A stretch of DNA of 64,000 bases from Christiangramia gaetbulicola (GTDB lineage Bacteria; Bacteroidota; Bacteroidia; Flavobacteriales; Flavobacteriaceae), in contig NZ_QBKQ01000001.1 in assembly GCF_003054225.1 (NCBI RefSeq), positions 496,001-560,000 on the forward strand, in the 5' to 3' direction. Positions 22,499 to 45,272 of this stretch are shown here, one piece after another (the stretch's first letter is position 1; each line of letters starts with the position of its first letter). Below the pieces are notes generated by a model. That model searched no databases. It worked only from the letters and a program-made list of their open reading frames with translations, and was not told the origin of the DNA. The position numbers were made by a program, and so were the translations under genes.

Positions 22499-23702
22499 GT
22501 AAATAATGGCTCATTGCATTGAACATAAAGGCATTGCTCCACCTCATATAAGAAATCTTCGAACTGACACCTTTTTTCAACTGGTAGTAAAAATATCCTC
22601 TTTTATCCTGCATATATTGAATAGACCAATTAAGAACCTTTGCAGAAAGCTGCTTGCACTCATCGAACTTATTCAGTTTTGATAGTGTCACAAAAAGTTG
22701 GGCAGGACAGTGAATATCTATAGGATATTTCTTGTCGTGATAATATTTTGGAGTTCCATCCCCCTCAAAAAAATTATTTATATAAAAATTAAATCCTTTT
22801 TTAATATTCTCTTTAAAAGAAGTATCTCCAGTATTTTCCTGGTAATATTGAATAGCCTCGAGGTTATAGCCCGTATGGAAGCTATCTATCCAGGATTGAA
22901 CAGGCAGTAAACCATAAACCCAGGAGCCATCTTCTTTTTGACCTTCACAGGCGGCCAGAACAGATAACCTAGCTAAATCTTTATATTCTTCCTTCGAGGT
23001 ATACTTATAGCAAATACTTAGCAGCTTAGCACCAAGCAATGATGCATTATAAACGGTATTATTACCATTAAGTGGACTATAAGAAAATAATATACCTTCA
23101 TTATGCCTGGTCCTATTTAGGTCATTTACTATAAAATTAGCAGATGATAAGGCAGTTTCCAGATATCTTTTATCCTTTGTAATCTCAAAAGCTTCGAACA
23201 ATGCCGAGGAACAAAAAGTAGTTGCTACAACGGTTGGTGTCTCTTTCGGAAATAAGAACAATCTTCTGGCCTGCCAATCGAAATTATATCCCCAGCAAGC
23301 ACCAGAATAATTCTTGTTTTGTAATTTAAGTAATAGGTTAGAAAGATAATTTACCTTCTTGAGTATTTCCTCCTTTTTTCCAAACCTAGTATTCCCGGTT
23401 TTAGCTATTCTATAAAGATTACAATAACCACTTAAGAATAATCCTATACCTTTCGAATTATATTCCTTGGGAACCAATAGGAATTTGCGAAAATTAATTG
23501 GACTTCTTTTAAAACCCTGTATCCATGCTAACCTGGCAAGGTCCCAGTTTTGGAGACCCGTAGCATTAAACACCATAGAATTTAAGCCGTCATAAGGATC
23601 CCAGCCTTTAAACTCTTCTGTTTCGCAGTAATTCTTTAAATCGATAAAAGAGGCTATATTCTTAGATTTCAACTTGTGCTCCTGCATTTTTAATTGATTC
23701 AA
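22458..23702 (-). CDS. Polysaccharide-locus (alpha/alpha)-barrel-like protein, function unknown
   Basis: A 414-residue soluble protein, all-alpha by appearance, with repeated Trp/Tyr/Gly-rich helix-turn segments (ACWGYNFDWQAR near 160, DGSWVYGLLPVQSWIDSFHTGYNLEAIQYY near 280, YMRWSNAFMFNAMSHYL at the end). This resembles six-hairpin glycosidase or epimerase barrels. Similar proteins are common in Bacteroidetes polysaccharide loci and, as far as I recall, have been given an unlikely heme-biosynthesis name in some annotations. The start overlaps the preceding gene by 41 bp. Whether it acts on a sugar is not shown. Confidence 0.75.
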   Translation of the reverse strand: MNQLKMQEHKLKSKNIASFIDLKNYCETEEFKGWDPYDGLNSMVFNATGLQNWDLARLAWIQGFKRSPINFRKFLLVPKEYNSKGIGLFLSGYCNLYRIAKTGNTRFGKKEEILKKVNYLSNLLLKLQNKNYSGACWGYNFDWQARRLFLFPKETPTVVATTFCSSALFEAFEITKDKRYLETALSSANFIVNDLNRTRHNEGILFSYSPLNGNNTVYNASLLGAKLLSICYKYTSKEEYKDLARLSVLAACEGQKEDGSWVYGLLPVQSWIDSFHTGYNLEAIQYYQENTGDTSFKENIKKGFNFYINNFFEGDGTPKYYHDKKYPIDIHCPAQLFVTLSKLNKFDECKQLSAKVLNWSIQYMQDKRGYFYYQLKKGVSSKISYMRWSNAFMFNAMSHYLLEEQKLQNAIANT

Positions 23703-25803: not shown

Positions 25804-27021
25804 TTATATATCTAAGTGTTGGATAAAATATTTTAACTTTCCCGATTTTGTTTTCGGAATATACTTTGTGGAGTTAATATCTATTTTAAAATTATCAAAC
25901 CTCTCAATCAAAATATTTTTTAGTATTTGATCATTGCAATTTTCCGAAGGAACATATAAAACATTTAGAATGCCCTTTTCTGACTGCGTGAATTGTATGC
26001 TTTCGATATAACTCCAAAAATTACCATGTATGCCAAATAAGTATGGACCAAATGCTTTTTTTTGACCTTGATTATCTAATACATATTCCTGCTTTCTCCC
26101 AATTATTTCATTTACTTTGAAGTACGAATCATCGCCACAGGTTCGTACTGATTTAGTAGCGTAGTCTTCGGTTATATAATTCTTGAATTGAGTACCATAT
26201 TTATTAAGTGAGGTCGCAATTAACATGTGCTCATCATTTCGATCCTTATCTTCCATCAGGTTAACTTTTCCATAAGTAGGATAAAAATGAAATTCTTCGC
26301 AATTCCAGCAAAACCTGGCCAGAATAGCATATTCGCTATGGCCATACCAGTGAGCTATCGGAATACTAAAGGTTTTCATAATCCACTTCATCTGACTAAT
26401 CGGAAATGTTTCCGAGCCCGCCATAATACCTTTAATGGGAAAAATTTTAAACATTTTCTCTCCAAAGAAATTAATTAACGACATCAACGAACTAGGATAA
26501 ACGTGCAGAAAGGATGGATTTTCGTAGAAAAGCTGTTGTAAATAAATTTTATTTTTAGGGATAAAAAAGTCTTGAGAAATAATAAGTGCATTTTCAAACC
26601 AATTGTATTGAATACCATTTTGAGGTATATTACCTCTAACAACTATTCGAAAATCAAATGGATTGTACCCAATGGTTTTCCAAATATCATATATATATGC
26701 TCTCTCCTTTTGGCGAGCAAAAATTAAATCTTGATAAAAAATAAATGGTTTACCACTTGTCCCTCCTGTACTAACCTGTTTTATTGGTACTAGAGGATGC
26801 TTTTTTAGAAAATACAGAAAGTCATTTTTAATATCATTTTTGGAAATTAATTGCTTCTCTGATATGTTTAAATTTTGGTAGTCATCAATTCTATAAATAT
26901 CCCACTTTTTTGACTTTCTTATTTTATCCACGTGAATCAAATAAGCAGGACCTAATATTAACTGTTTAATCCATTTCAGGAGATTTAACTGATTAACTAT
27001 ATAAGTAAACCTACTTTTCAT
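25804..27021 (-). CDS. PaaK/CapK-like adenylate-forming protein
   Basis: A 405-residue protein with the adenylation motif STGGTSGKPFIF near 92-103, SEFTFPI-like AGSETFPISQMKW near 215-228, GHSEYA, and a C-terminal lysine-rich end (PKTKSGKLKYF) like other ANL enzymes. In polysaccharide loci CapK-like proteins are thought to activate an acid for transfer to, or modification of, the sugar chain. It starts 10 bp inside the end of the preceding glycosyltransferase gene. Confidence 0.85.
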   Translation of the reverse strand: MKSRFTYIVNQLNLLKWIKQLILGPAYLIHVDKIRKSKKWDIYRIDDYQNLNISEKQLISKNDIKNDFLYFLKKHPLVPIKQVSTGGTSGKPFIFYQDLIFARQKERAYIYDIWKTIGYNPFDFRIVVRGNIPQNGIQYNWFENALIISQDFFIPKNKIYLQQLFYENPSFLHVYPSSLMSLINFFGEKMFKIFPIKGIMAGSETFPISQMKWIMKTFSIPIAHWYGHSEYAILARFCWNCEEFHFYPTYGKVNLMEDKDRNDEHMLIATSLNKYGTQFKNYITEDYATKSVRTCGDDSYFKVNEIIGRKQEYVLDNQGQKKAFGPYLFGIHGNFWSYIESIQFTQSEKGILNVLYVPSENCNDQILKNILIERFDNFKIDINSTKYIPKTKSGKLKYFIQHLDI

Positions 27022-28195
27022 CCAATAAACGACTATATAACTTTTCTATCAATTTAAAGTTCACTTCCTCTGTATATTTTTTATTAAACTCCCTCAAGCT
27101 ATTCCCCCCTAATCTTTTTCTATAACTTCTATCAGTTATTAAAGATTCAGCACCATCTAAAAAGCTTTGGAGATTGTTAATATTATAAATGATGCCATTA
27201 ACACCATTTTCTATTAACTCATTCCTAGGCCCAAGATTAGATGCTAAAACGGGGACACCCTGTGACATGGCCTCAAGAATTGTGATAGGCATACCTTCAT
27301 ACAAAGTCGAAGGGAAAACCATAAATGAACTTTCCCGTAGAAATTTCTTCACTTTAAGATTATCCATTTCTCCCATAAAGATAATGTTGGGGTTACTGCT
27401 AGCTAGAGATTTTGCACGTACTCCTAACGGTCCAGCGCCTATTATATAAAGAGGATAATCAATGTTTGTCCACATTTTTATTAGCTGTAATATTCCTTTT
27501 TCGAAGGACAACCTCCCAATGAAAACTGCTCTTTCTTTTTTTATTTCTTCATACCTCTCAATGGCGGAATTATCTATAAAGTTAGGTTTGACTCTAATTT
27601 TATTTATAGGTACTCCAGTTTGTGATAATTTATTCTTAGCAAACTTTGAAAGAACAATGTAGTTATCAACTAAATCTATAAGTTGATTCAATTCATCCTT
27701 TGTTTTCGTGTAAAGTCTATATTGTAGGCTACTCTTCAAAATTGAACCTTGCGAACAGCGGTGCAAAATAACATTAACCGGACTTTTGGTAACACATTTT
27801 TCACATGCTCGCCCTTTCCTATCCATAAAATTTCCACAAGGCACCATCAATCTGTAATTATGCAGTGTAAGGACAGTTTTTATACCTCTATCTTTAGCAG
27901 CTTGGAAAATAGAAGGAGTTAGAACGAACTTATAATTATGAACATGGAGAATATCAGGTTTAAATTCATCCATTATAAAACCAATTTCCTTTTTACTTTT
28001 TTCAGACCAATGGATGTTTTTAAATAATTTTAATTTTTTGTAATAATTAAAATCATCTATCTCTGAATTGCTTCTTTCATAAGTTTTAACCTTAACTCCG
28101 TTTTTTTCTAATAATTCTACTTCCGCTCTAAAAACCATAGCCTCTCCACCTACTGCAAAGTCGCCATAGTGATTATGGACAATTAAAATCTTCAT
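27011..28195 (-). CDS. Glycosyltransferase family 4 enzyme
   Basis: A 394-residue GT-B glycosyltransferase. The N-terminal glycine loop region is HNHYGDFAVGGEAMVFRAE; the donor-binding domain has FIGRLSFEKGILQLI (about 223-237) and the E-x7-E motif in EGMPITILEAMSQGVPVL (about 300-317). A CGNFMDRKGRACEKC segment near 125-137 has a cysteine cluster found in a subset of GT4 enzymes. Its sugar and linkage cannot be told from sequence. Confidence 0.92.
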   Translation of the reverse strand: MKILIVHNHYGDFAVGGEAMVFRAEVELLEKNGVKVKTYERSNSEIDDFNYYKKLKLFKNIHWSEKSKKEIGFIMDEFKPDILHVHNYKFVLTPSIFQAAKDRGIKTVLTLHNYRLMVPCGNFMDRKGRACEKCVTKSPVNVILHRCSQGSILKSSLQYRLYTKTKDELNQLIDLVDNYIVLSKFAKNKLSQTGVPINKIRVKPNFIDNSAIERYEEIKKERAVFIGRLSFEKGILQLIKMWTNIDYPLYIIGAGPLGVRAKSLASSNPNIIFMGEMDNLKVKKFLRESSFMVFPSTLYEGMPITILEAMSQGVPVLASNLGPRNELIENGVNGIIYNINNLQSFLDGAESLITDRSYRKRLGGNSLREFNKKYTEEVNFKLIEKLYSRLLDEK

Positions 28196-28249: not shown

Positions 28250-28386
28250 TCATTGTAATGGGTTCCAACTTATCTTTATATTAAACTTCTTTAAGGGTGA
28301 CTTTAGAAATGGTTTGATATAATCCCTAGACAACCATAATTCTAGCCAAATTTGGAAGAATAAGAATGAATTTAGTTTAGTTATTT
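28250..28386 (-). pseudogene. Possible decayed C-terminal gene fragment (asparagine-synthase-like?)
   Basis: The 181-bp gap between two glycosyltransferase genes contains about 45 open codons with no start. The translation has a plausible protein look, including FFQIWLELWLSRDYIKPFL and a stop at 28250-28252. The W-L-E-L-W-L pattern recalls the C-terminal end of asparagine synthases, which occur in other polysaccharide loci. The match is short, so this is only a suggestion of a lost gene. Confidence 0.3.
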
Positions 28387-29468
28387 ATAAAAAAACCTGT
28401 AATCTCCTTAGCTTTTGTTATTCCATTATTCTGTTCAGAAACGAGTTTCGATTTCGAAGCAATCTCATTTCGAAAATCATCATCTTCTATCATTTTCGAA
28501 AGTTTTGTCTTTAAATCTTCTAAATCTGTAGGATCGAAAACAATATCCTGATAAAATTCTTCAATCAAATTATCATGGACACCAGATTTATTTGATATTA
28601 AAGGAGGCAGACCGCTGCATATAGCTTCAGTATAAGTTTGAGGCCACCGATCTTTTAAAGATGGATGAAGGAATATATCTGCATTACGATAATAAGAATA
28701 GATGTCACTAGGATCTATAAATCCTGGAAATTCCACTTTTAGATTATGTTCTTCCGAATACTTCATTAAACGTACCTTCTCCGGTCCTTCTCCAACGACA
28801 ATTAATTTGATGCCTTTTGTCACTTCTAAAGAACTTAAAGCTCTTAAAAGGAAAATTGTATTCTTAAAGTCGAATTGAAATCCAACCGTTAATAACACTA
28901 AATCAGTCTTATCATTGGAAATTGGACTGGCAACGAGATTTTTATGAAACTTTTTATCATCTCTTGTATTATTCCCTAAAATAAATTCATCCTTAAAATT
29001 GGATTTTAAATTGTGTAAATAATCCTGAGATAATTTTGAATAATATATTGCTCCATCAAATGACTTTAAGAGTAAAACCCTCACTATTTCATGGGCTTTG
29101 GAAACGCTGCTCTCGGAAAGAATCGTTCCTCCCCACCAAATATAATTTTTGCATCTAAATATTATACGGTAGAATAATGGTGAAAGGTAATAATACGGCA
29201 TACCACCTATTACTATAAAATCTGGTTTTTTACTAATTAAGAATTTTAATAATTCCAGCAGAACTGAAATCTTATAACTAGAATTTATAAATGTAGAAAA
29301 ACGTAAAAATGACTCATTTTCAAATAAAGATACCTTTGATTTATGATTTGAACGATCTGATACAAATATGAAATTATATTCAATTTGTTCGTCTTTCACA
29401 AGTTCATTAAAAAAGTCTACCCGGTAAGAGACAGGAAAATTAGAAATTAAAACTCCCTTTTTTTTCAT
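28377..29468 (-). CDS. Glycosyltransferase family 4 enzyme
   Basis: A 363-residue GT-B enzyme. The C-terminal domain holds LTVGFQFDFKNTIFLLRAL (about 193-211), VVGEGPEKVRLM, and a variant E-x7-E motif in KDRWPQTYTEAICSGLPPLI (about 281-300). The N-terminal domain begins VLISNFPVSYRVDFFNELV. It overlaps the upstream gene by 4 bp (ATGA), so the two are translationally coupled. Acceptor and donor are unknown. Confidence 0.9.
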   Translation of the reverse strand: MKKKGVLISNFPVSYRVDFFNELVKDEQIEYNFIFVSDRSNHKSKVSLFENESFLRFSTFINSSYKISVLLELLKFLISKKPDFIVIGGMPYYYLSPLFYRIIFRCKNYIWWGGTILSESSVSKAHEIVRVLLLKSFDGAIYYSKLSQDYLHNLKSNFKDEFILGNNTRDDKKFHKNLVASPISNDKTDLVLLTVGFQFDFKNTIFLLRALSSLEVTKGIKLIVVGEGPEKVRLMKYSEEHNLKVEFPGFIDPSDIYSYYRNADIFLHPSLKDRWPQTYTEAICSGLPPLISNKSGVHDNLIEEFYQDIVFDPTDLEDLKTKLSKMIEDDDFRNEIASKSKLVSEQNNGITKAKEITGFFINN

Positions 29469-30598
29469 CTCAAATACTCTTCAATTAACCTGGAGTGCTG
29501 ATCCCAAACCGGCTCCCTTAATACTTCATCAACTAATAGTTTGCCGTTGGTCTTTAACCTATTAAGTAAACTAGGGTCTTCAAATAATCTTATTATCTTA
29601 TTCTTAATGTCCTCAGGGTTACCTTGCTTAATAAACAGAGCATTTTTTTCATCATCTAACATATAGGGAATACTATTGACAGCTGTCGTAATTATTGCAG
29701 TGTTAAAATACATAGCTTCATAAAATACCCGTGGGAATCCCTCTGAATAACTAGGTAAAATTAAGACATCAGCTTGCCTGTATTCTCTAAATAATTCAGG
29801 ACCGTTTTTAATAAAACCCTTCAAATTAATCCGATCCTGAAGATTGTTTTGTTTAATGATAGTTTTTAACCCTTTTTCCTCAACACCTTCTCCAATTATT
29901 GTCAATTTGAAATTATCTTGTGGATTAAGCATTATAAATGCTTCAAGTAAGTCATAAATTCCTTTTTGACTTTTTAATGAACCTACAAATAACAGTTTAT
30001 ATTCTTTACTGTCTACTTTTGATACTTTAGTATTATCATCGGAAAAATTCTGTAGATTAATTATCGGTTTAGTTTCAAAAACATCATCATTCCATCGATC
30101 ATATTTCTTTTTTAGTTGTCCACCTGTAACTAATAGTGCGGCACTCTTCTTTGAAATTAGACTATCAAAAAAATTATTCAAGAAGGGAGTAAAGGATAAT
30201 AATTTCCTCTTAGTATTCGAAAGGACCGTTAGCGATTCTCTCGTATTTAGTTTCCAATCTGTTCCATGATACAGGATATATTTCTTTTTAAAAATAAATG
30301 AAATAAAAGCTGCAATTACTCCTGTGTAAGTTGGCATAAAAATCAAAGAAATATTTTCCTTTTTAACCTGCCTGCATATAAGTTTAACCCGTGACAAATA
30401 AGAATTCGGCAATTCAATTACCCTAATTTTTTCAGTGTTCAAATTTTGAGTATGGAAGGAGAGTTTTTCCTCCGAAATTGGAGTTATAATAAAAATATTT
30501 TCTTTTTTTGAAAGGTTTTCGAGGTAATTGACAAATACCTCTTTCGCGTAAAATTCATTACCTTTTCTACCTATATTAGAATGAAAAAATATATTCAT
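29465..30598 (-). CDS. Glycosyltransferase family 4 enzyme
   Basis: A 377-residue GT-B enzyme with FVGSLKSQKGIYDLLEAF (about 204-221), IIGEGVEEKGLKTII, and the E-x7-E motif in SEGFPRVFYEAMYFNTAII (about 285-303). The N-terminus (FHSNIGRKGNEFYAKEVF) is an acceptor-domain start. It begins one base after the stop of the upstream gene and overlaps the next by 4 bp. Confidence 0.92.
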   Translation of the reverse strand: MNIFFHSNIGRKGNEFYAKEVFVNYLENLSKKENIFIITPISEEKLSFHTQNLNTEKIRVIELPNSYLSRVKLICRQVKKENISLIFMPTYTGVIAAFISFIFKKKYILYHGTDWKLNTRESLTVLSNTKRKLLSFTPFLNNFFDSLISKKSAALLVTGGQLKKKYDRWNDDVFETKPIINLQNFSDDNTKVSKVDSKEYKLLFVGSLKSQKGIYDLLEAFIMLNPQDNFKLTIIGEGVEEKGLKTIIKQNNLQDRINLKGFIKNGPELFREYRQADVLILPSYSEGFPRVFYEAMYFNTAIITTAVNSIPYMLDDEKNALFIKQGNPEDIKNKIIRLFEDPSLLNRLKTNGKLLVDEVLREPVWDQHSRLIEEYLR

Positions 30599-31665
30599 TA
30601 TTGACGTAAAAGTTGATAATATTTATCAAGTGTGTTCTCTATACCAAAAGTTGAAGCAGATTCCCTTGCACTAATAGCAAAAACAGCTAATTCTTCAGGT
30701 GATAATTTCAACATTTTTAAAATTTTCTGAGTCAGGTCAGGTACATTATCCTTTTCGAAATGAAAGCCATTCTGCCCATCTTTGACCATAGAGGATAATG
30801 ATTCGATATTACTGGAAATAACAGGGATTCCCTGGGATAAAATTTCTATTAAGGAAATGGGCAAACCTTCTCTTCTAGAAGGCATAATCGCTATATCTGC
30901 AGAGGAAATATATTGAAATGGTTCAGTTTTACTTCCTAAGAGGGTAATTCTATCTTCAAGATTATTTATTTTAATTAACCTTGAAATATGAGAATACAAT
31001 TTACCATCTCCAATCATTTTCAGATGCCAATTATGTTTAAGGACATCTGGATTATTTAAAGCTTTAATTAAAATATCATAACCTTTCGCATCTACAAACC
31101 TCCCTAGGGTGAAAAAATTTTTTTGATCTTTTATATGACCATCTGAATATTCAGGGTTAATTCTAGAAAAATCAATGCCATTTCTAATAACTATAACCTT
31201 TTCAGGAGGCAGTTCCAAAACCTCTGTTAAATAAGATTTGACCGATTCAGAAATTGCAACGATTTTTAAGGAACAAAATTTGTATAAGATTTTGGCTATA
31301 TATTCCTTCATTCCCCCCTTAGGATAAATATTTGTGCTGTGTACTACAGGAAATATTTTAACCTTGGAAAGTTTTGCAGAAATAAGTGAAATTTTATTAG
31401 CCCTTTCCAAATGTGAGAATCCGTATTTAATATCATTTTCTTTAAAGTATTTTGTGAGGGCCAAAATATTCTTCAAATTATAATTGCTATCTATTATCTT
31501 GACAATAGTTCGTTTGTTACTGATTTGCGGCAATAACATTTTACCGCCAGAGAGAAGTATTAAGTAAATCTTATCTTCATCTTTCCAATTATTGATAATA
31601 TCGACAACTAATTTTTCTCCTCCACCCATTTGAAGAGAATTAATTACAAATGCAACATTCGCCAT
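30598..31665 (-). CDS. Glycosyltransferase family 4 enzyme
   Basis: A 355-residue GT-B enzyme. Motifs: SLQMGGGEKLVVDI at the N-terminus (the glycine loop), LGRFVDAKGYDILIKAL (about 187-203), MIGDGKLYSHI, LLGSKTEPFQYISSADIAIMPSRREG and E-x7-E in REGLPISLIEILSQGIPVI (about 265-283). It follows the polymerase gene by 11 bp. Very AT-rich like its neighbours. Confidence 0.93.
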   Translation of the reverse strand: MANVAFVINSLQMGGGEKLVVDIINNWKDEDKIYLILLSGGKMLLPQISNKRTIVKIIDSNYNLKNILALTKYFKENDIKYGFSHLERANKISLISAKLSKVKIFPVVHSTNIYPKGGMKEYIAKILYKFCSLKIVAISESVKSYLTEVLELPPEKVIVIRNGIDFSRINPEYSDGHIKDQKNFFTLGRFVDAKGYDILIKALNNPDVLKHNWHLKMIGDGKLYSHISRLIKINNLEDRITLLGSKTEPFQYISSADIAIMPSRREGLPISLIEILSQGIPVISSNIESLSSMVKDGQNGFHFEKDNVPDLTQKILKMLKLSPEELAVFAISARESASTFGIENTLDKYYQLLRQ

Positions 31666-31676: not shown

Positions 31677-32930
31677 TTATATTGTACTGAAAGATTTCAG
31701 TTCAACCCTTTTTAAATCAGCCTTTAGGAAAGGTATAAGTGCTGTAATGATAAATATATGTTTATAATGAACCCCGTGATTATCTAAAAAAGAACCTAAG
31801 ATCATAATTAGGGGAACTGTAAGAAATACCCAGCAAATTGAGATATATAAATAATCGTGTTGTAAAATTGTAGAGATTCTCTTTCTTAGTTTAAAACTGA
31901 ACTTTATGAGACTAATAAGAAATATATAATATAAAAGAAATCCTAGAATACCGGTTTCAGATAAATATTGTAGAAAAACGGAATGTAAAGATATTTTTTG
32001 AGACGATCCGAACGCATGTATGGTGTTATATGGATTATTAATATCACTAAAACTTTTATATCCATAACCAAAAATAGGGTGATCCATAAACATTGTCCAG
32101 GCATCTTCATAAATCACAGACCTCCCAGAACTTAATGAAGCTAGACCTTTATCTTCGAAATCTAATTCGACATTAGAAACATCACTCGATTTCCTCAAAA
32201 AGAATTCTTCTCCAATAGGGGAATTTAAAAACATAACTAGGACAATACACAGAAAAGCAAACCCGATAATTTGATTAATATTAATTCTTTTGCCAAAGGA
32301 ATAATTTAACAAAATAAGAAGGACCCCAATTCCAAAATTTAATCTTCCTTGAGTTAAAACCATGGCGAAAAATAGAAATATTAGAGTCTTATTATTGAAA
32401 AAAAAGCTCCTATAGCCGCTCCTTATTCCCGCAATGCAAAATATAATTGAAATCAAAAGGTAAAATCCAACTTGTCTAGGATTTCCAAACAGTGAAACAA
32501 AAGTAATAAATGAATCTAACGATAAAATTAAACCTACAAGGACAAAGAGTTTACAAATCTTATACCATATCTCTTCTAAATCTTCCTGAACAATGGAACT
32601 TTGAACAATAAAAATTAGAAAGAAGTTGTTGAAAATTGTCAGATCAATAGTTCCAAAATATTTGAAGTTTGTAAAAGCGAAATAAATAATAGTAACTAAT
32701 AAAAGTGAAATATGCTTATTGAATTTGGCAACTATTCTACCATTATTAGCTATTAATGATATTACTATACTAAAGAGAAATATAGCTGAAAATGGAATTC
32801 CTCCTAATGATTCATAAAATCTTATTGGTAACATGCTATCTATAATAGCCACATATAAAATATTGACTGGATTTTTACTACAATACAGAAATACACTAAA
32901 CCAGGTAAGGAGAATAAGACCTACTACCAT
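31677..32930 (-). CDS. O-antigen polymerase/ligase family protein (Wzy)
   Basis: A 417-residue protein with about 10-12 hydrophobic segments and a large central loop (about 250-330) typical of Wzy_C proteins; the loop has the pattern SGRSVIYEDAWTMFMDHPIFGYGYKSF, where the HP.fGyG piece is the recognisable family signature. It would join repeat units on the periplasmic face. It overlaps the upstream glycosyltransferase by 7 bp. One such gene is expected in a Wzx/Wzy locus, and this is the only candidate. Confidence 0.9.
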   Translation of the reverse strand: MVVGLILLTWFSVFLYCSKNPVNILYVAIIDSMLPIRFYESLGGIPFSAIFLFSIVISLIANNGRIVAKFNKHISLLLVTIIYFAFTNFKYFGTIDLTIFNNFFLIFIVQSSIVQEDLEEIWYKICKLFVLVGLILSLDSFITFVSLFGNPRQVGFYLLISIIFCIAGIRSGYRSFFFNNKTLIFLFFAMVLTQGRLNFGIGVLLILLNYSFGKRININQIIGFAFLCIVLVMFLNSPIGEEFFLRKSSDVSNVELDFEDKGLASLSSGRSVIYEDAWTMFMDHPIFGYGYKSFSDINNPYNTIHAFGSSQKISLHSVFLQYLSETGILGFLLYYIFLISLIKFSFKLRKRISTILQHDYLYISICWVFLTVPLIMILGSFLDNHGVHYKHIFIITALIPFLKADLKRVELKSFSTI

Positions 32931-34087
32931 AATTTGTTTTTATTAAACATCCAAAACAAATTCTTCCACACAAAACTTTTATTCTCTTCGAGAACCTTGT
33001 GATAAATATCTTTAGTTTTAATTGCCCCTATTTTTGAATCATATTCCGCTTCAATATATTGCTTATTAAATCGTTCATAAGGCTTCAAAGAGAAGCCTGT
33101 ATCGTCCAATTGTTTTAAAATTCGGTGTAAAGAAAACTCAACACTATTTTGCCCTAATTTTCGACCTGAAAAATTATAATTAGAGATATGTTCCACATTA
33201 GATTTATTAACCAGGACAGAGCCCTTCTCATCGAAACCTAATAACACTACAGCCTTTCCTAAAGCCATTGCTTCTAGAAGGCCTCGCCCATGACCTACGG
33301 TTAATTTACTATTGACATAATATTGATAGATTAAGTCTTGATCATTTAGTTCACCTAAAAACTTGAAATCAATTCCATTTTCAGATTTCAAATTAATCAG
33401 GCTTGCTCTTTCTTGACAATACCCACGTAACTCTCCATCTCCGGCAATAACAATATTTAATCCATGCTTTGGTTTGCCAACTTTTTCTAATTCATCAAAT
33501 AAATTATCCAGCAATCCTTTCTTAGCTTTCATTAACCTCATTGCGATAAAAACAAAGTCAGAATCAAATCCGGATTTCTTTTTAAAAACCTTAAAATTAT
33601 CTATTGGTAATCTTTCTTTGATCAAAAAAATTCTGTTTAAATCAAAAAAATAATTATTTGTATTATATGCATTTTCTAATTCTTTAGAAAAGACAATAAG
33701 GGCATTGGAATATGGTAGGAAGAATGGAAGTGGTTTACCCCCGGCCTTCGTAAATACAATTTTTTTTTTGACAAAAAAATTGTTCAAAAGAGCAGCCAAA
33801 AAACCTCTATAATCCATCGCATGTATTACTGAAATTCTATTTGCAGTAATACCTTTTAAAATTTTAATAAAATTATACAAGGCAAATAAGACATTATTCC
33901 TGGAAAATTTTAAGGGTATATATCTAACACCTAATTCTTTGAAGGCATCAGCTTTTTCTCCATGAGGAGCCATTAAAACTATATTGTGAACCCCCTCTAA
34001 TTTTCTCAGATCTTTTATTAAGGCATACGTTGAATTAATGTGCCCCCCCTGTCCCAAGGGCCATCCTATGATAAATAAAATTTTCAC
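32924..34087 (-). CDS. Glycosyltransferase family 4-like enzyme
   Basis: A 387-residue GT-B protein. The N-terminal glycine loop reads GWPLGQGGHINSTYALI, the C-terminal domain has FIAMRLMKAKKGLLDNLFDEL (about 180-200), VIAGDGELRGY and a shortened acidic motif in GHGRGLLEAMALGKAVVLLG (about 267-286), where only the second Glu of E-x7-E is clear. It lies 8 bp after murB. Product specificity unknown. Confidence 0.85.
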   Translation of the reverse strand: MKILFIIGWPLGQGGHINSTYALIKDLRKLEGVHNIVLMAPHGEKADAFKELGVRYIPLKFSRNNVLFALYNFIKILKGITANRISVIHAMDYRGFLAALLNNFFVKKKIVFTKAGGKPLPFFLPYSNALIVFSKELENAYNTNNYFFDLNRIFLIKERLPIDNFKVFKKKSGFDSDFVFIAMRLMKAKKGLLDNLFDELEKVGKPKHGLNIVIAGDGELRGYCQERASLINLKSENGIDFKFLGELNDQDLIYQYYVNSKLTVGHGRGLLEAMALGKAVVLLGFDEKGSVLVNKSNVEHISNYNFSGRKLGQNSVEFSLHRILKQLDDTGFSLKPYERFNKQYIEAEYDSKIGAIKTKDIYHKVLEENKSFVWKNLFWMFNKNKLW

Positions 34088-34095: not shown

Positions 34096-34953
34096 TTAAA
34101 TTATTCTTTGTTCTACTTCCAACTGAACCCCAAAGTGTTTAAGAACCTCTGATTGAATATGATCAATTAATTTTAATATATCGTAACCGGAAGCATTCTC
34201 ATAATTGATTATAAAACCACTATGCTTTTCAGAAACCATTGCTCCTCCTACTCGATATCCTTTTAGTTTCAATTCATCTAACAATGGTCCAACAAAACGT
34301 CCTTCAGGTCGCTTAAATACACTTCCACAATTTGGATAGTTCCGAGGTTGCTTGGCCCAACGTTTCATTTTAATTTCTTCCATTTTAGCATTAATAGCTT
34401 CCTGATTGCCTTCTTTTAGACGAAACGATGATTTAAGGACTAATTTATCTGGATTCTGTTGGAAGAAACTATTTCTATATTCAAAGTGTATGTCTTCCAC
34501 AGATATTTCTTCAATAAGATTCTTTGACCTATCAAAATATCTGACCTTTGTAAGTAAATCTTTAATTTCTTCTCCACTAGAACCGGCATTCATTACTACT
34601 GCACCTCCCACTGAACTTGGAATGTCGTAAAACATTTCAAATCCAGACAATGATTGATTTAAGGCAATTTGACTTAACTCTAAGAGAGTGGCTCCAGCTT
34701 CAGCAACAATTTTTGAACCTTCAACTTCAATTTTATTAAAACATCCATTTAAAATAATAAATGGTTCATCATATTTCTCCTTTGAAAGAATTAAATTATT
34801 TCCATTCCCAATTATATATGGTTGAGAATCTTTCAATTCTGAAAATAATCTAACTATATCACTTTCGCTATCCGGAAAAAATACTGTATCACAGTAACTG
34901 GTAATTCCATAGGAATTAAATTTTTTCAGATTAAAGTTCTTGAACGACTTCAC
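34096..34953 (-). CDS. murB: MurB-like UDP-N-acetylenolpyruvoylglucosamine reductase in the polysaccharide locus
   Basis: A 285-residue FAD enzyme of the shorter type II MurB class. FAD-binding GNGNNLILS (49-57), GFEMFYDIPSSVGGAVVMNAG (104-124), the substrate Tyr-Arg in FEYRNSFF (157-164), the proton-donor Ser211 in CGSVFKRPEG, and the C-terminal block KGYRVGGAMVSEKHSGF with Glu279/Glu281 near the end are all present, so it should be active. It reduces the enolpyruvyl product of MurA to UDP-MurNAc. It overlaps the murA-like gene by 23 bp. Its place inside a capsule locus, not in a cell-wall cluster, points to a role in the surface polymer. Confidence 0.92.
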   Translation of the reverse strand: MKSFKNFNLKKFNSYGITSYCDTVFFPDSESDIVRLFSELKDSQPYIIGNGNNLILSKEKYDEPFIILNGCFNKIEVEGSKIVAEAGATLLELSQIALNQSLSGFEMFYDIPSSVGGAVVMNAGSSGEEIKDLLTKVRYFDRSKNLIEEISVEDIHFEYRNSFFQQNPDKLVLKSSFRLKEGNQEAINAKMEEIKMKRWAKQPRNYPNCGSVFKRPEGRFVGPLLDELKLKGYRVGGAMVSEKHSGFIINYENASGYDILKLIDHIQSEVLKHFGVQLEVEQRII

Positions 34954-36214
34954 CCTTTAAAATTTTAAAATTTGAAACTCCTAAATTTTTAAGTTTATTT
35001 TCTAGATTTTCGTAACCCCTTTCTATCATCCAGGCGTTTTTGATGGTGGTTGTGCCTTCTGATATAAGTCCCGCTAATAATAACGAAATTCCAGCCCTGA
35101 GGTCAACAGCAATAACTTCGGTACCGTATAATTTTTTGCCTCCTTCAATAACTAAAAGATCTCCTTCTACACTATAATTCAACCCCATCTTTGCAAATTC
35201 TTCCGCATAACCATATCTTCCTGGAAATCTAAGGTCAACGATTTTAGAATTACCTTTTGAATTAGCACCATAAAGCGCGAATAACGGTTGCATATCTGAG
35301 TTTATTCCGGGATAAGGGCCTGTACTTATTTCTACTGGATAAGGAATACCTCCCCTTACTATCATAGAAGAACCATTACGATAATATTTCATTCCACTTT
35401 CCCTTAAAAACACCATAGGCACTTCAAGATGTTCAAATGGAAAGTTCTCAATTTCTACGTCACCACGGGTAATTGTTGCTGCAATAGCCCAGGTTATTGC
35501 TTCCATGTTATCTGGTATGACTGTATGTTGAGTTCCTGAGAGTTCATTTACACCATTTACAACTATACATTTTTGCCCTTGAACCTCAATACTAGCGCCC
35601 ATTTTATTCAGCATTTCAATCAAATCGAGAACCTCGGGCCTAATATGTGGGTTCCAAATTGTTGTTCTTCCTTCTGCTAATGTTCCACATAATAAAGCAT
35701 TTTCAGTAGCTCCTGTCGATCTTATTGGCAATTGAATATCGGCGCCTTTCAAATTACCTTCAACACTAGCACATAAACACTCGTTTTCCTCCCATACTTT
35801 AGCTCCCATACTTTCAAGAACCATAACATGTAAATCAAATTTCCTGTCCCCTAATTTACATCCACCGGGCATAGGAACACTTCCTTTACCAAATCTGGTT
35901 ACAAGAGTACCTAATATCAATAGTGTGTTACGAATAGAACGATCTTCCCATTTTAGTTGAGTAATTGGAGAATCTGTATTTTCAATAATAGAAACCTGAT
36001 CATTATGAATTCTATATTCTTTTCCTAATTTTTTAATCATTTCCAGATGTATTTTCACATCTAGCAATCCGCTAGGAAAACCATATAAATGTATTGGTTC
36101 CCTAGTAAGCAAAGAGGCAGCAATTAGTTTAAGGGCACTATTCTTTGCGCCACTTACTTTAACCTTACCCTTTAGAACCGATTTTGAAATTTTAAATTCT
36201 TTTTTATCCATCAT
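34931..36214 (-). CDS. murA: MurA-like UDP-GlcNAc enolpyruvyl transferase in the polysaccharide locus
   Basis: A 427-residue EPSP-synthase-fold enzyme. The key residues are present: Lys24-Asn25 in SGAKNSALKL, catalytic Cys119 in MPGGCKLGDRKFDLH, Asp307 in PGINSDMQPLF and Arg373 in DLRAGISLLLAG. It transfers enolpyruvate from PEP to UDP-GlcNAc (or another UDP-HexNAc). The N-terminal part looks unlike the usual housekeeping MurA of Flavobacteria as I recall it, which suggests a paralog. A second start codon lies one codon in. It is read with murB and followed by glycosyltransferases. Confidence 0.92.
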   Translation of the reverse strand: MMDKKEFKISKSVLKGKVKVSGAKNSALKLIAASLLTREPIHLYGFPSGLLDVKIHLEMIKKLGKEYRIHNDQVSIIENTDSPITQLKWEDRSIRNTLLILGTLVTRFGKGSVPMPGGCKLGDRKFDLHVMVLESMGAKVWEENECLCASVEGNLKGADIQLPIRSTGATENALLCGTLAEGRTTIWNPHIRPEVLDLIEMLNKMGASIEVQGQKCIVVNGVNELSGTQHTVIPDNMEAITWAIAATITRGDVEIENFPFEHLEVPMVFLRESGMKYYRNGSSMIVRGGIPYPVEISTGPYPGINSDMQPLFALYGANSKGNSKIVDLRFPGRYGYAEEFAKMGLNYSVEGDLLVIEGGKKLYGTEVIAVDLRAGISLLLAGLISEGTTTIKNAWMIERGYENLENKLKNLGVSNFKILKGEVVQEL

Positions 36215-36293: not shown

Positions 36294-37577
36294 CTAATTC
36301 AACCTCATTTTAATTAACTTAAACATTATTACTAAAAAGGTGATTAAATAAAAGCTTGCTAGAACCATTGAATATAATAAGATCGAATAATTAGAGCTAA
36401 TATTGAATAAATAAGCACAAGCAAAGGAAACTGTAATTAGAATAATTCTAATTATGTTAATCCTAAGTTGTAAATATTGCCATTCTAATACATTCAAAAT
36501 ATGCATTACCGGACTAACAATAAATTTCGCAGAAACTATAAAAATTAAAAATCTGGAAATATTACCAGCATCTCGCCAATTCTCTCCAAAAATATATTCG
36601 AACAAATCTGGGCCAAATAATAGAATAACAAATAAGGCCGGCAAGCTCAACAAGGTTAATTTTTTTATTACTCCAATCGTTAATTCATAGATTTTTCTAT
36701 TATTATTTTTCCCATATTGGGCTATTTCAGCAAAATAAACATGGGAAACAGAGCTTCCTATAAGATTAATAGGAGCACTGATTATAGAGCTAGCCAGTGC
36801 GAATAAGCCTAAAAATTTCACTCCAAATAATGCCGCTATAAAGAATAAAGGTAGTCGCGGCCCAAAACTTAAAAGGAATTGGGAGCCGGTTTGATACAAT
36901 GGAAAATCCTTATATTTTCTTCCAACTACTAATAATTTTTTATAATTGAAATTATTAAATAATCTGATTTTATTTTTCCGAACACTTTTAAACAGAGATA
37001 TAATACCGGCACTTTTTTCAGATGTCCCTCCTATAATTAAACCATAGCCTCCAAAACCGGCAAATCCGGCAAAAATTTTAAAAGCGGATCCTGTTATGCT
37101 TTGAGCAAATTTTGTTTTGGTTAATATTTTAAAATCTTTTTTCCTGATAGCCCAATATGAAAATAGATTATACATTCCTATCAAAAGACATACAATAGGA
37201 ATAACCCACAAAAATTCTCTTAGAGATTCAATACCGAAAAAGGTTAAAAGAAAACCTCCAAATGAAAATATAGTAAGAGCCAGTATGGTAATAAATAAAA
37301 TAAGAACCAATATTCCCAGCTCTATCACATATTGAGCTATTTTATCCGATTTGGCTATAGGGATTACTACTTCATATCTTAGTGTACTTATAGATGCCAA
37401 AATTCCGATAATAGAAAATAGCAGAGAGTAGACGCCAAAATCGTCTGGAGTATACAACCTAGTAATTAAAGGAGTTGTAAACAACGCTAAGGCTTGAGCT
37501 AATGCTGTTCCGGAAGAAACTAATAATACATTTTTTAAAAACGTATTATTTCTAATTTTAGTAATTAAAGCTTTCAA
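36294..37577 (-). CDS. Wzx-type polysaccharide flippase (MATE-like/MVF superfamily)
   Basis: A 427-residue protein with about 12 hydrophobic segments; the N-terminus (SSGTALAQALALFTTPLITRLYTPDDFGVYSLL) is a typical Wzx/PST start with the RLYTPxDFG signature. It moves the lipid-linked repeat unit across the inner membrane. It is the only flippase in the locus and, with the Wzy protein, shows a Wzx/Wzy-dependent route. Confidence 0.9.
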   Translation of the reverse strand: MKALITKIRNNTFLKNVLLVSSGTALAQALALFTTPLITRLYTPDDFGVYSLLFSIIGILASISTLRYEVVIPIAKSDKIAQYVIELGILVLILFITILALTIFSFGGFLLTFFGIESLREFLWVIPIVCLLIGMYNLFSYWAIRKKDFKILTKTKFAQSITGSAFKIFAGFAGFGGYGLIIGGTSEKSAGIISLFKSVRKNKIRLFNNFNYKKLLVVGRKYKDFPLYQTGSQFLLSFGPRLPLFFIAALFGVKFLGLFALASSIISAPINLIGSSVSHVYFAEIAQYGKNNNRKIYELTIGVIKKLTLLSLPALFVILLFGPDLFEYIFGENWRDAGNISRFLIFIVSAKFIVSPVMHILNVLEWQYLQLRINIIRIILITVSFACAYLFNISSNYSILLYSMVLASFYLITFLVIMFKLIKMRLN

Positions 37578-37648: not shown

Positions 37649-38659
37649 TTATAATTTTACAGGCCTTAAATTTTCCCAATACCATTCCACCGCCTCGGTA
37701 ATTCCTTCTTCAATTTTAAATTTTGGGTCATATCCCAATAAATGTTTTGCTTTATCTATAGAGGCTAAAGAATGAGGAATATCCCCAACACGGTTTGGCC
37801 CATGCTTGATCTCAACCTTACTAATTTCTGGATCAAATTTAGATAAGTGGGTTTTAAGCAAGTGAGTTAATTCAAGTAAATTAGTTCTATCCCCTACAGC
37901 AGCATTGTATATTTGATTGAGGGCATTTTTATTTTCTGTGGTAATAGCTAACAAATTCATTTGAACCACATTGTCTATATAAGTAAAGTCCCTGGAATAA
38001 GTACCATCGCCATTAATTACAGGACTTTCATGGTTCATCAGTTGGATCACGAATTTTGGAATAACAGCTGCATAAGCACCATTAGGGTCCTGCTTTCTTC
38101 CAAACACATTAAAATACCTAAGTCCGATAGTATCTAAACCATAAGCCTTATGAAAAATATCTGCATAGAGTTCATTGACATATTTCGTTATGGCATAAGG
38201 AGATAAAGGCTTACCTATTTCATCTTCTACCTTAGGTAATTTCTCGGAATCTCCATAAGTAGAAGAACTGGCAGCATAGACGAAACGTTTAACACCCGCA
38301 TCTCTAGCTGCTACCAACATGTTTAAAAATCCAGATACATTAACCTCATTACTGGTTATTGGATCATTTAAAGACCTTGGCACAGAGCCTAAGGCAGCTT
38401 CATGCAATATATAATCCTTACCGGCACAGGCTTTATGACAGGTTTCCAGGTCTCGTATATCACCCTCTATTAAGGTGAAATTCGAATGATCTATTATCGC
38501 ATCAAGATTGTACTTATGTCCGGTAGCAAAATTATCTAGACAGGTAACTTCTGCCTCTAACATTATTAGTTCTTCACAAAGGTTAGAACCAATAAATCCA
38601 GCTCCGCCAGTAACTAATATCTTTTTACCTACTAATTTTTTAAATCTCTCTTTTTGCAT
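37649..38659 (-). CDS. UDP-HexNAc(A) 4-epimerase of the WbpP/TviC group
   Basis: A 336-residue short-chain dehydrogenase-like enzyme: TGGAGFIGSNLCEEL (15-29) for NAD, catalytic Ser in ASSSTYGD (about 132-138) and the YAITK pair (about 152-156). The N-terminus KLVGKKILVTGG and LDNFATGHKYNLD match WbpP/TviC, which interconvert UDP-GlcNAc and UDP-GalNAc and their uronic acids. It lies 1 bp from the dehydrogenase gene, as tviB and tviC do, so the pair probably makes UDP-GalNAcA. Confidence 0.9.
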   Translation of the reverse strand: MQKERFKKLVGKKILVTGGAGFIGSNLCEELIMLEAEVTCLDNFATGHKYNLDAIIDHSNFTLIEGDIRDLETCHKACAGKDYILHEAALGSVPRSLNDPITSNEVNVSGFLNMLVAARDAGVKRFVYAASSSTYGDSEKLPKVEDEIGKPLSPYAITKYVNELYADIFHKAYGLDTIGLRYFNVFGRKQDPNGAYAAVIPKFVIQLMNHESPVINGDGTYSRDFTYIDNVVQMNLLAITTENKNALNQIYNAAVGDRTNLLELTHLLKTHLSKFDPEISKVEIKHGPNRVGDIPHSLASIDKAKHLLGYDPKFKIEEGITEAVEWYWENLRPVKL

Positions 38660-39997
38660 TTAAAGTTTACCGTTTACGGTTTCCAATATTCCTTTTACAT
38701 CATACACCACAGCGTCTTCATTCTTAAGCGCATCCAAATCCATTGATAAAAACTCCTTATGCGCCACGGTTAAAACGACCGCATCGAACTTTTGCCCTTC
38801 GACAAGCTCAGGACTGCAAGTAAGTTTATATTCGTGCTGAACCTCTACTGGATTTGCCAAAGGATCATAAATAGTAATATTAGTGCCGTAGGATTTCAAT
38901 TCTTCGACCACATCTACCACTTTAGTATTACGTACATCAGGACAATTTTCTTTAAAGGTGATTCCCAGCACCAGGATGTTTGCTCCCTTAACCTTCAGAT
39001 CATTTTGAAGCATCAGTTTGATGACTTCTGAGGCTACATATTTACCCATGGAGTCGTTCATGCGCCTTCCAGCAAGGATGATCTCTGGGTGGTATCCAAT
39101 TTCCTGTGCCTTTTGAGCCAGGTAATAAGGATCTACTCCTATACAATGACCACCAACAAGTCCGGGTTTGAAAGGTAAAAAGTTCCATTTGGTGCCAGCC
39201 GCCTCTAAAACATGATTAGTATCGATATTCATTTTATTGAAGATCTTAGCCAATTCATTCACAAAAGCGATGTTGATATCACGTTGTGAATTTTCGATCA
39301 CTTTAGCAGCTTCTGCTACTTTAATAGTCGGAGCTAAATGGGTCCCGGCAATAATAACCTCCTTATAAAGTGCATCTACTTTTTTACCAACCTCGGGAGT
39401 TGACCCTGCAGTAACCTTTAATATCTTCTCTACCGTATGTTCTTTATCTCCGGGATTGATGCGCTCGGGCGAATAGCCTACGAAGAAATCTTCATTGAAT
39501 TTCAAACCACTTACTCTTTCCAGCACTGGCACACATTCGTCCTCGGTAACTCCTGGATAAACTGTAGATTCATAGATCACTGTATCTCCTTTTTGTAACA
39601 CTTTTGCTACAGACTCACTGCTTTTGTAAAGTGGAGTCAGGTCTGGACGGTTATTTTTATCAATTGGAGTTGGAACTGTAATGATGTAATAATTACAGTC
39701 TGCGATTTCCTCCAGGTGACTAGTAACATATAAACCAGTGTTAATTTCTTCTTCAATCTCGAAATCACCTGCTATCTCAAGCTTAAAGCTTTTTACAGGA
39801 TTTGATTGCTTTAATACAGCCTGAAGAATATTATCTTCAACCTCTAAAGTACTGTCATGTCCTTTTTTCAGCTCATTAATTCTTGACTGATTGATATCGA
39901 ATCCTACCGCAGGAAATTTTGTAGCAAATAGCCTGGCTAGTGGCAAACCCACATATCCCAATCCAATTATGGCAATTCTTGGTCTTTCGTTGATCAT
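38660..39997 (-). CDS. UDP-N-acetylhexosamine 6-dehydrogenase of the TviB/WbpA group
   Basis: A 445-residue nucleotide-sugar dehydrogenase. N-terminal GLGYVGLPLA (12-21) binds NAD; PTPID (about 110), STVYPGVTEDECVPVLE, and the catalytic Cys in GGHCIGVDPYYLAQ (about 281) are present; the C-terminal UDP-binding domain runs from about 320. It makes the uronic acid form, probably UDP-GlcNAcA or UDP-GalNAcA. Near residue 395 the sequence CSPELVEGQKFD is the direct translation of a REP-like repeat. It begins an operon with its own promoter 164-194 bases upstream. Confidence 0.92.
   Translation of the reverse strand: MINERPRIAIIGLGYVGLPLARLFATKFPAVGFDINQSRINELKKGHDSTLEVEDNILQAVLKQSNPVKSFKLEIAGDFEIEEEINTGLYVTSHLEEIADCNYYIITVPTPIDKNNRPDLTPLYKSSESVAKVLQKGDTVIYESTVYPGVTEDECVPVLERVSGLKFNEDFFVGYSPERINPGDKEHTVEKILKVTAGSTPEVGKKVDALYKEVIIAGTHLAPTIKVAEAAKVIENSQRDINIAFVNELAKIFNKMNIDTNHVLEAAGTKWNFLPFKPGLVGGHCIGVDPYYLAQKAQEIGYHPEIILAGRRMNDSMGKYVASEVIKLMLQNDLKVKGANILVLGITFKENCPDVRNTKVVDVVEELKSYGTNITIYDPLANPVEVQHEYKLTCSPELVEGQKFDAVVLTVAHKEFLSMDLDALKNEDAVVYDVKGILETVNGKL
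38795..38817. repeat. REP-like repeat inside the UDP-sugar dehydrogenase gene
   Basis: CCCTTCGACAAGCTCAGGAC lies inside the coding frame and is translated on the minus strand as SPELVEG. The CTTCGACAAGCTCAG core is a widespread dispersed intergenic repeat in Bacteroidetes, so this is an in-frame intragenic copy. Confidence 0.75.
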
Positions 39998-41141: not shown

Positions 41142-41615
41142 TTATAATACATCCTGAACATTAGCGGTGAGCGTCCACCCTATATCAGGCAGGATTAGTT
41201 TAAGCTTCTTACTCCCGACCTCTTTAATGATGGCCTCCTTTTTTGCCAGTTTACCCGATTTTATCTCGACTTTATCCCCAGGTTTCAGGTTGTTGACTTC
41301 AAAACCATCCAGGCGGTCATTATTCAACCAGGATCTTATAGCTTCGATCTCTTCGGGTTTAGCAATAGCGGGTTTATTCAGCCAGTTTAAAAAACCAAGA
41401 ACTCCTGGAGCATCGAACACACGGTTTCGATTACTATTTTCCAGATTAGCAAATAGATAGGTTCTAAATAAGGGTAAAGTAACTTTCTTTTTTCGATCTG
41501 TCCATTGCCTCACTTCTGTAATCACCGGACAATAAACATCCAGTCCTAGATCTTCAAGGATCTTAGCCGATTTGATTTCATGTTGCGGTTTTGTACGTAT
41601 TACATACCAGGGCAT
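41142..41615 (-). CDS. UpxY/NusG-like transcription antiterminator
   Basis: A 157-residue NusG-family protein: an NGN domain (about 1-95, starting MPWYVIRTKPQHEIKSAKILE) and a KOW domain (about 103-157, LKPGDKVEIKSGKLAKKEAIIKEV). Such proteins lead Bacteroides capsule loci (UpxY) and let RNA polymerase read through long operons. The frame is open upstream to 41819, but that extra part is translated from a 7-bp tandem repeat (LTTHNSQ repeats) and lies upstream of the promoter, so the ATG at 41615 is chosen. It heads the polysaccharide locus. Confidence 0.9.
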   Translation of the reverse strand: MPWYVIRTKPQHEIKSAKILEDLGLDVYCPVITEVRQWTDRKKKVTLPLFRTYLFANLENSNRNRVFDAPGVLGFLNWLNKPAIAKPEEIEAIRSWLNNDRLDGFEVNNLKPGDKVEIKSGKLAKKEAIIKEVGSKKLKLILPDIGWTLTANVQDVL

Positions 41616-41689
41616 ACTGCGATTTTTATCTTCAGAATGTAAATTTCTCGCAGTAGGGTATCTATGAAAGTGGAGAAATTTTGAATAGG

Positions 41690-41719
41690 CAAAAATACAA
41701 TTTTTTAACGAGCTGTCAA
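41690..41719 (-). promoter_or_regulatory. Promoter of the antiterminator gene
   Basis: On the minus strand TTG (41719-41717), 19 bases, then TATTTTTG (41697-41690), a full Bacteroidetes promoter match. Predicted start near 41683, giving a leader of about 68 bases before the ATG at 41615. Confidence 0.75.
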
Positions 41720-41730
41720 GGGAGAAGTTA

Positions 41731-41780
41731 GTTGTGAGTTGTGAGTTGTGAGTTGTGAGTTGTGAGTTGTGAGTTGTGAG
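41731..41780. repeat. 7-bp tandem repeat upstream of the antiterminator promoter
   Basis: Seven perfect copies of GTTGTGA plus one base, 12 bases upstream of the -33 element of the antiterminator promoter. A repeat of this kind can change copy number by slippage. It also encodes the spurious LTTHNSQ repeats of the upstream open frame. Confidence 0.9.
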
Positions 41781-41804
41781 TAAATTAAAATTTAGAATTG
41801 AATA

Positions 41805-42148
41805 TTGTTCATTGTTCATTGTTTATTGAAAAGACAGCCTTCGACTGCGCTCAGTCTGACAGGCCATATCGCACAAAGAACCATAAAATACTAAATACAT
41901 TTTACAGTCTAAAGATTACAAACTACGAACACCGAACTACGAACTACCATAGATTTCTCCCTTCGCTCGAAATCACACTGGAAGTGAGAATACTGAAAAT
42001 TCTTTATAATAACTGTTTATTGTTTATTGTCTTTGCGAGGCTTCGCCGAAGCAATCTCAACTATAGTATCCAGATCAAAGAACTACAGACTAAAGGCTAC
42101 ATTCTAAAAACTATGAGCTACAAACACCGAACTAAAAACCATAAACTA
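41805..42148. repeat. Mosaic of short dispersed repeats upstream of the island
   Basis: No gene can be supported here. The stretch holds at least three REP-like pieces: CCTTCGACTGCGCTCAGTCT (41838-41857), CTCCCTTCGCTCGAAATCAC (near 41956-41975) and GCGAGGCTTCGCCGAAGC (near 42036-42053). Between these are degenerate runs of the type GAACTACGAACTACC and ATTGTTCATTGTTTATTG. The open frame from 41798 to 42217 runs through these repeats and is not protein-like. Confidence 0.65.
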
Positions 42149-43633: not shown

Positions 43634-43636
43634 AAA

Positions 43637-44830: not shown

Positions 44831-44970
44831 GGAAATTATTATCCTGCTTAAAAGCAACGATAGCTAACATTTCGTAACTACAAAAAAATGTGATCTGCCA
44901 ATTTTTTAGAACATTAATAGAATTTAGCAAAACAGAACAGAAATGAATTGTTTAACTAAATTTATTATTT

Positions 44971-45264: not shown

Positions 45265-45272
45265 CTAAAAAA

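Follow-up and report, generated by a model that had tools for sequence, protein, structure and literature searches.

The window analysed here is a 64,000-nucleotide stretch of the Christiangramia gaetbulicola genome (contig NZ_QBKQ01000001.1, positions 496,001 to 560,000). It contains a Wzx/Wzy-type polysaccharide locus that lies on a single strand (-) and spans a NusG-like gene (41142-41819) to a Wzc gene (16161-18566). Inside this locus are two genes encoding a MurA-like enolpyruvyl transferase and a MurB-like reductase. The pair probably forms a lactyl-ether sugar pathway that is dedicated to the surface polysaccharide, as a first reading of the same DNA (hereafter the sequence-only reading) had proposed; additional copies of both genes in the genome, and the recurrence of this type of MurA in distant polysaccharide loci, support that idea. 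We use the label PS for the clade of polysaccharide-locus MurAs to which the transferase belongs.

34931..36214, - strand: MurA-like enolpyruvyl transferase, PS clade, 427 amino acids (TIGR01072, clade tree, residues)
34096..34953, - strand: MurB-like reductase, short form, 285 amino acids (PRK13905, 273 bits; TIGR00179, 210.6 bits; tree)

Both frames are intact and overlap by 23 bases, in agreement with the two complete overlapping genes first described at 34096..36214. The MurA scores 393.9 bits on TIGR01072 (NCBIfam), barely over the cut-off of 392.7, and the MurB is over the TIGR00179 cut-off (NCBIfam; 144.5) with 210.6 bits. A residue check found K24, N25, R95, C119, R124, D307, D371, R373 and R399 in the MurA. 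The MurB carries a Y159-R160 pair, the active-site S211 and E281 near its C-terminal end, and its active-site stretches align with those of Staphylococcus aureus MurB 1HSK. Every residue named in the sequence-only reading is in place, the glutamate being E281. AroA and NikO belong to the same superfamily as the window MurA, but the AroA model gives it 75 bits against a cut-off of 287, and the NikO match is restricted to residues 167-413 (114 bits).

The host genome (3.64 Mb in 8 contigs, with a completeness rated at 99.99%) encodes one other murA (L002; G000:C2:462181-463443), the product of which is 32% identical to the window MurA, and one other murB (G000:C3:219760-220767); TIGR00179 likewise counts two murB in the genome. 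These second copies rule out that the window pair is the only murA and murB, in which case the sequence-only reading would have taken it for the housekeeping set. A recent duplication of the host's own genes is ruled out by the 32% MurA identity and by the placement of the two MurBs on different branches, the host's own MurB (about 341 amino acids) lying on another branch of the tree than the short-form window MurB. The housekeeping MurA has Asp where the window MurA has Cys119, the fosfomycin-target Cys. Asp also occupies this site in all 29 housekeeping MurAs of relatives that were compared (L110-L138).

Short exact peptide patterns searched against a collection of genome contigs retrieved 44 loci, of which 42 are 54-69% identical and 2 are 33-34% identical, and plasmid records contributed at least 7 matches at 54-60%, the next being at 37% (40 of 104 matches listed). 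The PS set comprises the pattern-scan loci together with plasmid, Methanosarcina and Psychrobacter matches; after removal of truncated sequences (L043, L046, L047) and duplicates, the alignment comprised 49 PS members and 84 other MurAs. PS members are 48-94% identical to one another (median 63) and 26-42% identical to other MurAs (median 34). In a careful 57-row tree, built with no outgroup, a branch with 100/100 support separates PS from other MurAs, and the window MurA does not group with the peptidoglycan MurAs, which lie on the opposite side. A quick 81-row tree with an AroA-like outgroup gives this branch a length of 3.05 changes per column, with support of 98 for the other side and 51 for the PS side against the outgroup. 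The tree check proposed in the sequence-only reading places the MurA in a separate clade at 100/100 support, and its remark that the N-terminus is atypical for Flavobacteria proved an understatement, as the whole protein falls outside the housekeeping clade.

Members of the PS clade occur in Bacteroidota, Pseudomonadota, Balneolota, Verrucomicrobiota, desulfobacteria, Microbacterium and the Methanosarcina group. Group-wise genome searches, which score few candidates per genome and may give counts that are lower bounds, found PS only in the window's genome among 149 kinship genomes (own included; by identity) and among 395 genomes of its class (own included; E 1e-100), in 3 of 105 Psychrobacter-group genomes, in 1 of 227 Vibrio-group genomes, in 1 of 394 genomes of one order (the search centre itself) and in 5 of 30 Methanosarcina-group genomes. 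In a TIGR01072 search of 40 genomes, drawn from 41 of the 44 loci, 38 hold a PS copy and 2 only an ordinary MurA. An additional MurA of 430-598 bits is present in 35 of the 38; the others are two metagenome bins (G008, G020) and a Methanosarcina genome (G037). The PS copies in the 38 genomes score 322-393 bits, with one (393.0) over the cut-off. Neither of 2 pattern matches in viral contigs is a relative, a distant DNA search of E. coli genomes with one clade member gave no match, and among the 15 matches listed from 45 phage records there were only MurAs at 38% identity or less.

Nine residues (K22, N23, R91, C115, R120, D305, D369, R371 and R397 in E. coli numbering) are kept in 49/49 PS members. 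We take K22, C115, R120, D305 and R397 to be the MurA catalytic residues, and N23 and D305 presumably bind the N-acetyl group and O-3. Against this conserved background, 35 clade-diagnostic columns (one residue in at least 95% of PS and in at most 5% of other MurAs) separate PS from the 84 others. All PS members share A92N, V161R, V163T, A186H, V327R, N330G and H334Y; E188R and E329P are present in 47 of the 49, and R232N is also diagnostic. Of 23 ligand-contact positions listed in a docking study on 1UAE (PMC11628175), 7 are switched (161, 163, 188, 232, 233, 303, 327), 15 unchanged and 1 variable, so that contact positions are richer in switches than all columns (p = 0.0014). The pattern is no more than suggestive of a pocket re-lined throughout the clade. 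Arg or His is gained at 161, 186, 188 and 327, and Glu is lost at 188 and 329, changes that would suit a more acidic sugar nucleotide.

The sequence-only reading had placed the pair far from any cell-wall cluster, and its neighbours are indeed polysaccharide genes and none for the cell wall, in the order TviB-like, TviC-like, Wzx, MurA, MurB, glycosyltransferases, Wzy, a fusion of alcohol dehydrogenase and Gfo/Idh, WecG, WecB, WecA, Wza and Wzc. Below, HexNAc is N-acetylhexosamine, GlcNAc N-acetylglucosamine and ManNAc N-acetylmannosamine (a final A marks the uronic acid), UDP is uridine diphosphate and GT4 is glycosyltransferase family 4.

41142..41819, - strand: NusG-like antiterminator at the 5' side of the locus (Pfam NusG; putative role)
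38660..39997, - strand: UDP-HexNAc 6-dehydrogenase, TviB-like (NF011729, 529 bits, below cut-off 592; TIGR03026, 393 bits, over cut-off)
37649..38659, - strand: UDP-HexNAc(A) 4-epimerase, TviC-like (NF011728, 402 bits, below cut-off 760)
36294..37577, - strand: Wzx-type flippase (MOP flippase model, 64 bits, far below cut-off 273; family F3, 24/48 loci)
32924..34087, - strand: putative glycosyltransferase directly after MurB (no NCBIfam match; family F8, 19/48 loci; GT4-like motif by eye only)
31677..32930, - strand: Wzy-type polymerase (Pfam Wzy_C)
30598..31665, - strand: GT4-type glycosyltransferase (NCBIfam glycosyltransferase models, below cut-offs)
29465..30598, - strand: GT4-type glycosyltransferase (same models, below cut-offs)
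28377..29468, - strand: GT4-type glycosyltransferase (same models, below cut-offs)
27011..28195, - strand: GT4-type glycosyltransferase (same models, below cut-offs)
23662..25800, - strand: fused zinc alcohol dehydrogenase and Gfo/Idh/MocA oxidoreductase (Pfam)
21779..22498, - strand: WecG/TagA-type ManNAc(A) transferase (Pfam, NCBIfam)
20613..21728, - strand: UDP-GlcNAc 2-epimerase WecB (TIGR00236, 328 bits, over cut-off)
19430..20554, - strand: WecA-type initiating phosphosugar transferase (Pfam Glycos_transf_4)
18569..19375, - strand: Wza-type export protein (Pfam Poly_export)
16161..18566, - strand: Wzc-type chain-length kinase (Pfam Wzz, AAA_31, GNVR)

A further protein of the locus (25804-27021; 405 amino acids) has no Pfam or NCBIfam match and, in the clustering described below, does not belong to any of the 40 largest families of genes in related loci. 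All six bins of 26-38 kb have a guanine-plus-cytosine (GC) content of 0.30-0.35, and 16 of the 26 remaining bins of the window one of 0.38-0.44. Integrase, VapE-like, primase-like and relaxase genes at 42398-48851 mark a mobile element adjoining the locus, which is likewise of low GC (0.30-0.32 at 42-50 kb) and may have helped to bring the locus in. Flippases similar to the window Wzx (23-31% identity) occur on 7 plasmid records, none of which is among the PS-clade plasmid matches listed; because the two sets of records differ, Wzx is a weaker guide to a shared sugar.

In 43 of 51 loci a MurB gene lies no more than 6 kb from that of the PS MurA. For context clustering we used 48 loci, the window included (L037, L043, L046 and L047 were left out), of which 27 have at least 8 kb on each side; near-copies, for example 4 Methanosarcina loci among the 27, each count as a locus of their own. 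MurB and a glycosyltransferase each occur in 26 of the 27 well-flanked loci, which answers the proposal of the sequence-only reading to list similar pairs in other polysaccharide loci. A flippase is found in 22, an epimerase-like short-chain dehydrogenase/reductase in 21, a nucleotide-sugar dehydrogenase in 18, an EpsC/CysE-like acetyltransferase in 15 and Wzc in 12. On a Qingshengfaniella plasmid (L170:11323-15121) an acetyltransferase, MurA, MurB and one family 2 glycosyltransferase stand alone among metabolic genes, possibly as a minimal cassette. A TupA-like ATP-grasp gene is present in 1 of the 27 well-flanked loci and in 3 of the 48 overall. Such genes lie near MurA/MurB at L021:9001-10008 and L237:6407-7273 (Pfam) and in L024 and L041 (clustering only). 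By analogy with MurC in peptidoglycan, their products could join an amino acid to the carboxylate of the lactyl group through an amide bond. The history of MurB is less simple than that of MurA, since the PS-locus MurBs are split: in a tree of 41 (three partial MurBs left out), two well-supported groups hold 9 and 29 rows, and three rows join ordinary MurBs with support of 81.

The five Methanosarcina-group carriers (L044, L173-L176), one of which is M. spelaei, all encode the pair together with a nucleotide-sugar dehydrogenase, a TviC-like epimerase and a flippase, and three also have an acetyltransferase at the pair. Each has a single MurB without a second copy, and the sole other MurA match is 27-28% identical and is taken as AroA. 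As the Methanosarcina PS MurAs nest as one group inside the bacterial members (support 100; 81-row tree), the placement suggests transfer from bacteria. Contamination as the source of the pair is ruled out by contigs of 4.5-4.9 Mb in four of the five genomes. Another Methanosarcina-group genome carries, on a 9-kb contig, a MurA just 35% like that of the window (L085; G052:C167), which is perhaps bacterial contamination. Methanosarcina archaea are held to be without peptidoglycan. For M. barkeri, walls lacking peptidoglycan are indicated by the title of a reference in PMC11111885.

We infer the reaction and its acceptor, and also that the sugar enters the polymer. The MurA-like enzyme would move enolpyruvate from phosphoenolpyruvate to O-3 of a UDP-N-acetylhexosamine-type sugar, and reduction of the enolpyruvyl product by the MurB-like enzyme would yield a lactyl ether. 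One of the glycosyltransferases in the locus could then place the lactyl sugar in a WecA-primed repeat unit, to be flipped by Wzx, polymerised by Wzy and exported by Wza/Wzc. The acceptor may be a sugar other than UDP-GlcNAc, which would make the product an analogue of N-acetylmuramic acid (MurNAc), and UDP-GlcNAcA or UDP-GalNAcA (GalNAc, N-acetylgalactosamine) supplied by the neighbouring TviB/TviC-like enzymes are candidates. Since the pocket is re-lined throughout PS but ordinary in a Vibrio MurA matched to a capsule known to contain muramic acid (see below), an analogue appears somewhat more likely than MurNAc itself, two options between which the sequence-only reading did not choose. We advance the broader proposal with similar caution: a family that crosses domains under the MurA name might convert UDP-sugars other than UDP-GlcNAc into 3-O-lactyl ethers that enter the surface polysaccharides of bacteria and of peptidoglycan-free Methanosarcina. 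With UDP-N-acetylhexosaminuronic acids, which are perhaps its substrates, the resulting sugar would bear two carboxylates.

Several observations weigh against these readings. Among PS-conserved columns, the contact positions are not significantly enriched in switches (7/22 versus 28/129, p = 0.29), and these positions come from a docking paper on 1UAE (PMC11628175). All 49 PS members lack R232 and the Lys at 160 and have acquired an acid at 119. The charge pattern is thus mixed, so that charge alone decides nothing on the acceptor, and because this weakens the idea of an acidic substrate we hold the departure from UDP-GlcNAc only tentatively. TviB/TviC-like neighbours are not universal among PS loci, and 8 of the 51 loci are without a MurB within 6 kb, although three of these have less than 2 kb downstream. 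Deleting either of the murA and murB paralogues of the Vibrio vulnificus capsule locus reportedly did not stop capsule synthesis (Nakhamchik 2010), and the Vibrio genome used for comparison below is probably, rather than certainly, that of V. vulnificus ATCC 27562.

One alternative, which we think somewhat less likely than an analogue, is that the pair simply makes extra UDP-MurNAc, so that the polymer would hold MurNAc like the capsule of V. vulnificus ATCC 27562. The retention of N23 and D305 in every PS member is in its favour, and the Nakhamchik study of 2010 is said to have found murA and murB paralogues in the V. vulnificus capsule locus, with products that work in E. coli. MurNAc in surface polymers is already in print: PMC7247339 and PMC4515632 place it in the capsule of ATCC 27562 and in the lipooligosaccharide of Psychrobacter arcticus 273-4, respectively. 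According to the former, the ATCC 27562 capsule locus has wza-wzb-wzc linked with capsule genes, includes wecA and has a GC content below that of the genome. Two MurAs are present in 4 of the 227 Vibrio-group genomes (candidates G1297, G1114 and G1156), and the second MurA was examined in G1297. Its locus (L237) encodes Wzc, a Wzb-like phosphatase, rml-type genes, MurB, MurA, Wzx, a TupA-like ATP-grasp, Wzy and a transposase, with WecA on the other strand and a GC content of 0.39; Wza, if present, is beyond the stretch covered. From this gene content we infer that G1297 is ATCC 27562.

The MurA of the G1297 locus carries 0/35 PS residues and 31/35 of those usual in ordinary MurAs, is placed with the housekeeping enzymes in the 57-row tree without common descent with PS MurA, and is accompanied by a MurB matching the long-form model PRK00046. 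It is therefore no voucher for the PS clade, and if G1297 is ATCC 27562, the MurA behind a muramic-acid capsule is an ordinary one, and muramic acid need not be the product of the PS clade. A PS-type MurA (30/35 PS residues) is found in another Vibrio-group genome, G1206. One Psychrobacter-group genome, which we take to be P. arcticus 273-4, shows only a housekeeping MurA, so that a polymer with MurNAc does not require a pair of this kind. An unchanged substrate would also hardly account for pocket switches that are fixed across phyla.

That the pair is a backup or conditional MurA/MurB for peptidoglycan, the alternative named in the sequence-only reading, is very improbable. Its catalytic residues are complete and Gram-positive bacteria often have two MurAs; yet only the window's own genome among the 149 kinship genomes has a PS MurA, the clade is separate at 100/100, glycosyltransferases accompany it in 26 of the 27 well-flanked loci, and the pair is present in five genomes of archaea held to be without peptidoglycan, with a single MurB and no other full MurA match. 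Least credible is an enolpyruvyl ether kept unreduced in some loci with MurB dispensable: a MurB within 6 kb is missing from five loci that extend at least 5 kb downstream (L006, L020, L037, L038 and L040, with less than 400 bases covered upstream in L037 and L040), but in the window an intact MurB adjoins MurA, MurB is present in 26 of the 27 well-flanked loci, and a housekeeping MurB could act where the locus has none.

Muramic acid is taken as a sign of bacterial cell wall, and drugs are aimed at MurA as a peptidoglycan enzyme. A separate clade of MurA-like enzymes that serves capsules and is also present in archaea held to be without peptidoglycan would weaken both assumptions and would mean that some 'murA' annotations are wrong. 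It would further point to an undescribed acidic sugar, the carboxylate of which could carry amino acids, as that of MurNAc does. Fosfomycin could tell the two host enzymes apart, given the Asp of the housekeeping MurA and the Cys of the capsule MurA. Among the titles listed by full-text searches on murA/murB with O-antigen or capsule (25 of 8,844 in one listing) and on Methanosarcina (20 of 36 in one listing), none concerns a clade like PS, most subscription papers lying outside the collection searched. Word searches of two articles found no murA, MurNAc or carboxyvinyltransferase (PMC12369344) and no murA, murB or muramic (PMC4582637).

The predicted product is of the same kind as known lactyl-ether polymer sugars such as the N-acetylisomuramic acid of Proteus penneri 62, although no PS-clade gene is tied to any of them here. 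With the housekeeping MurA and MurB the pair shares protein families, catalytic residues and the presumed chemistry of enolpyruvyl transfer followed by reduction, but MurAs of the window's clade are 26-42% identical to the others and are set apart by the 35 diagnostic columns. Like the V. vulnificus capsule locus, the window has MurA and MurB side by side with Wzx, Wzy, WecA and Wzc, in a Wzx/Wzy locus with housekeeping copies elsewhere in the genome. In the Vibrio genome that fits this system, in contrast, the capsule-locus MurA and MurB are of the ordinary housekeeping type.

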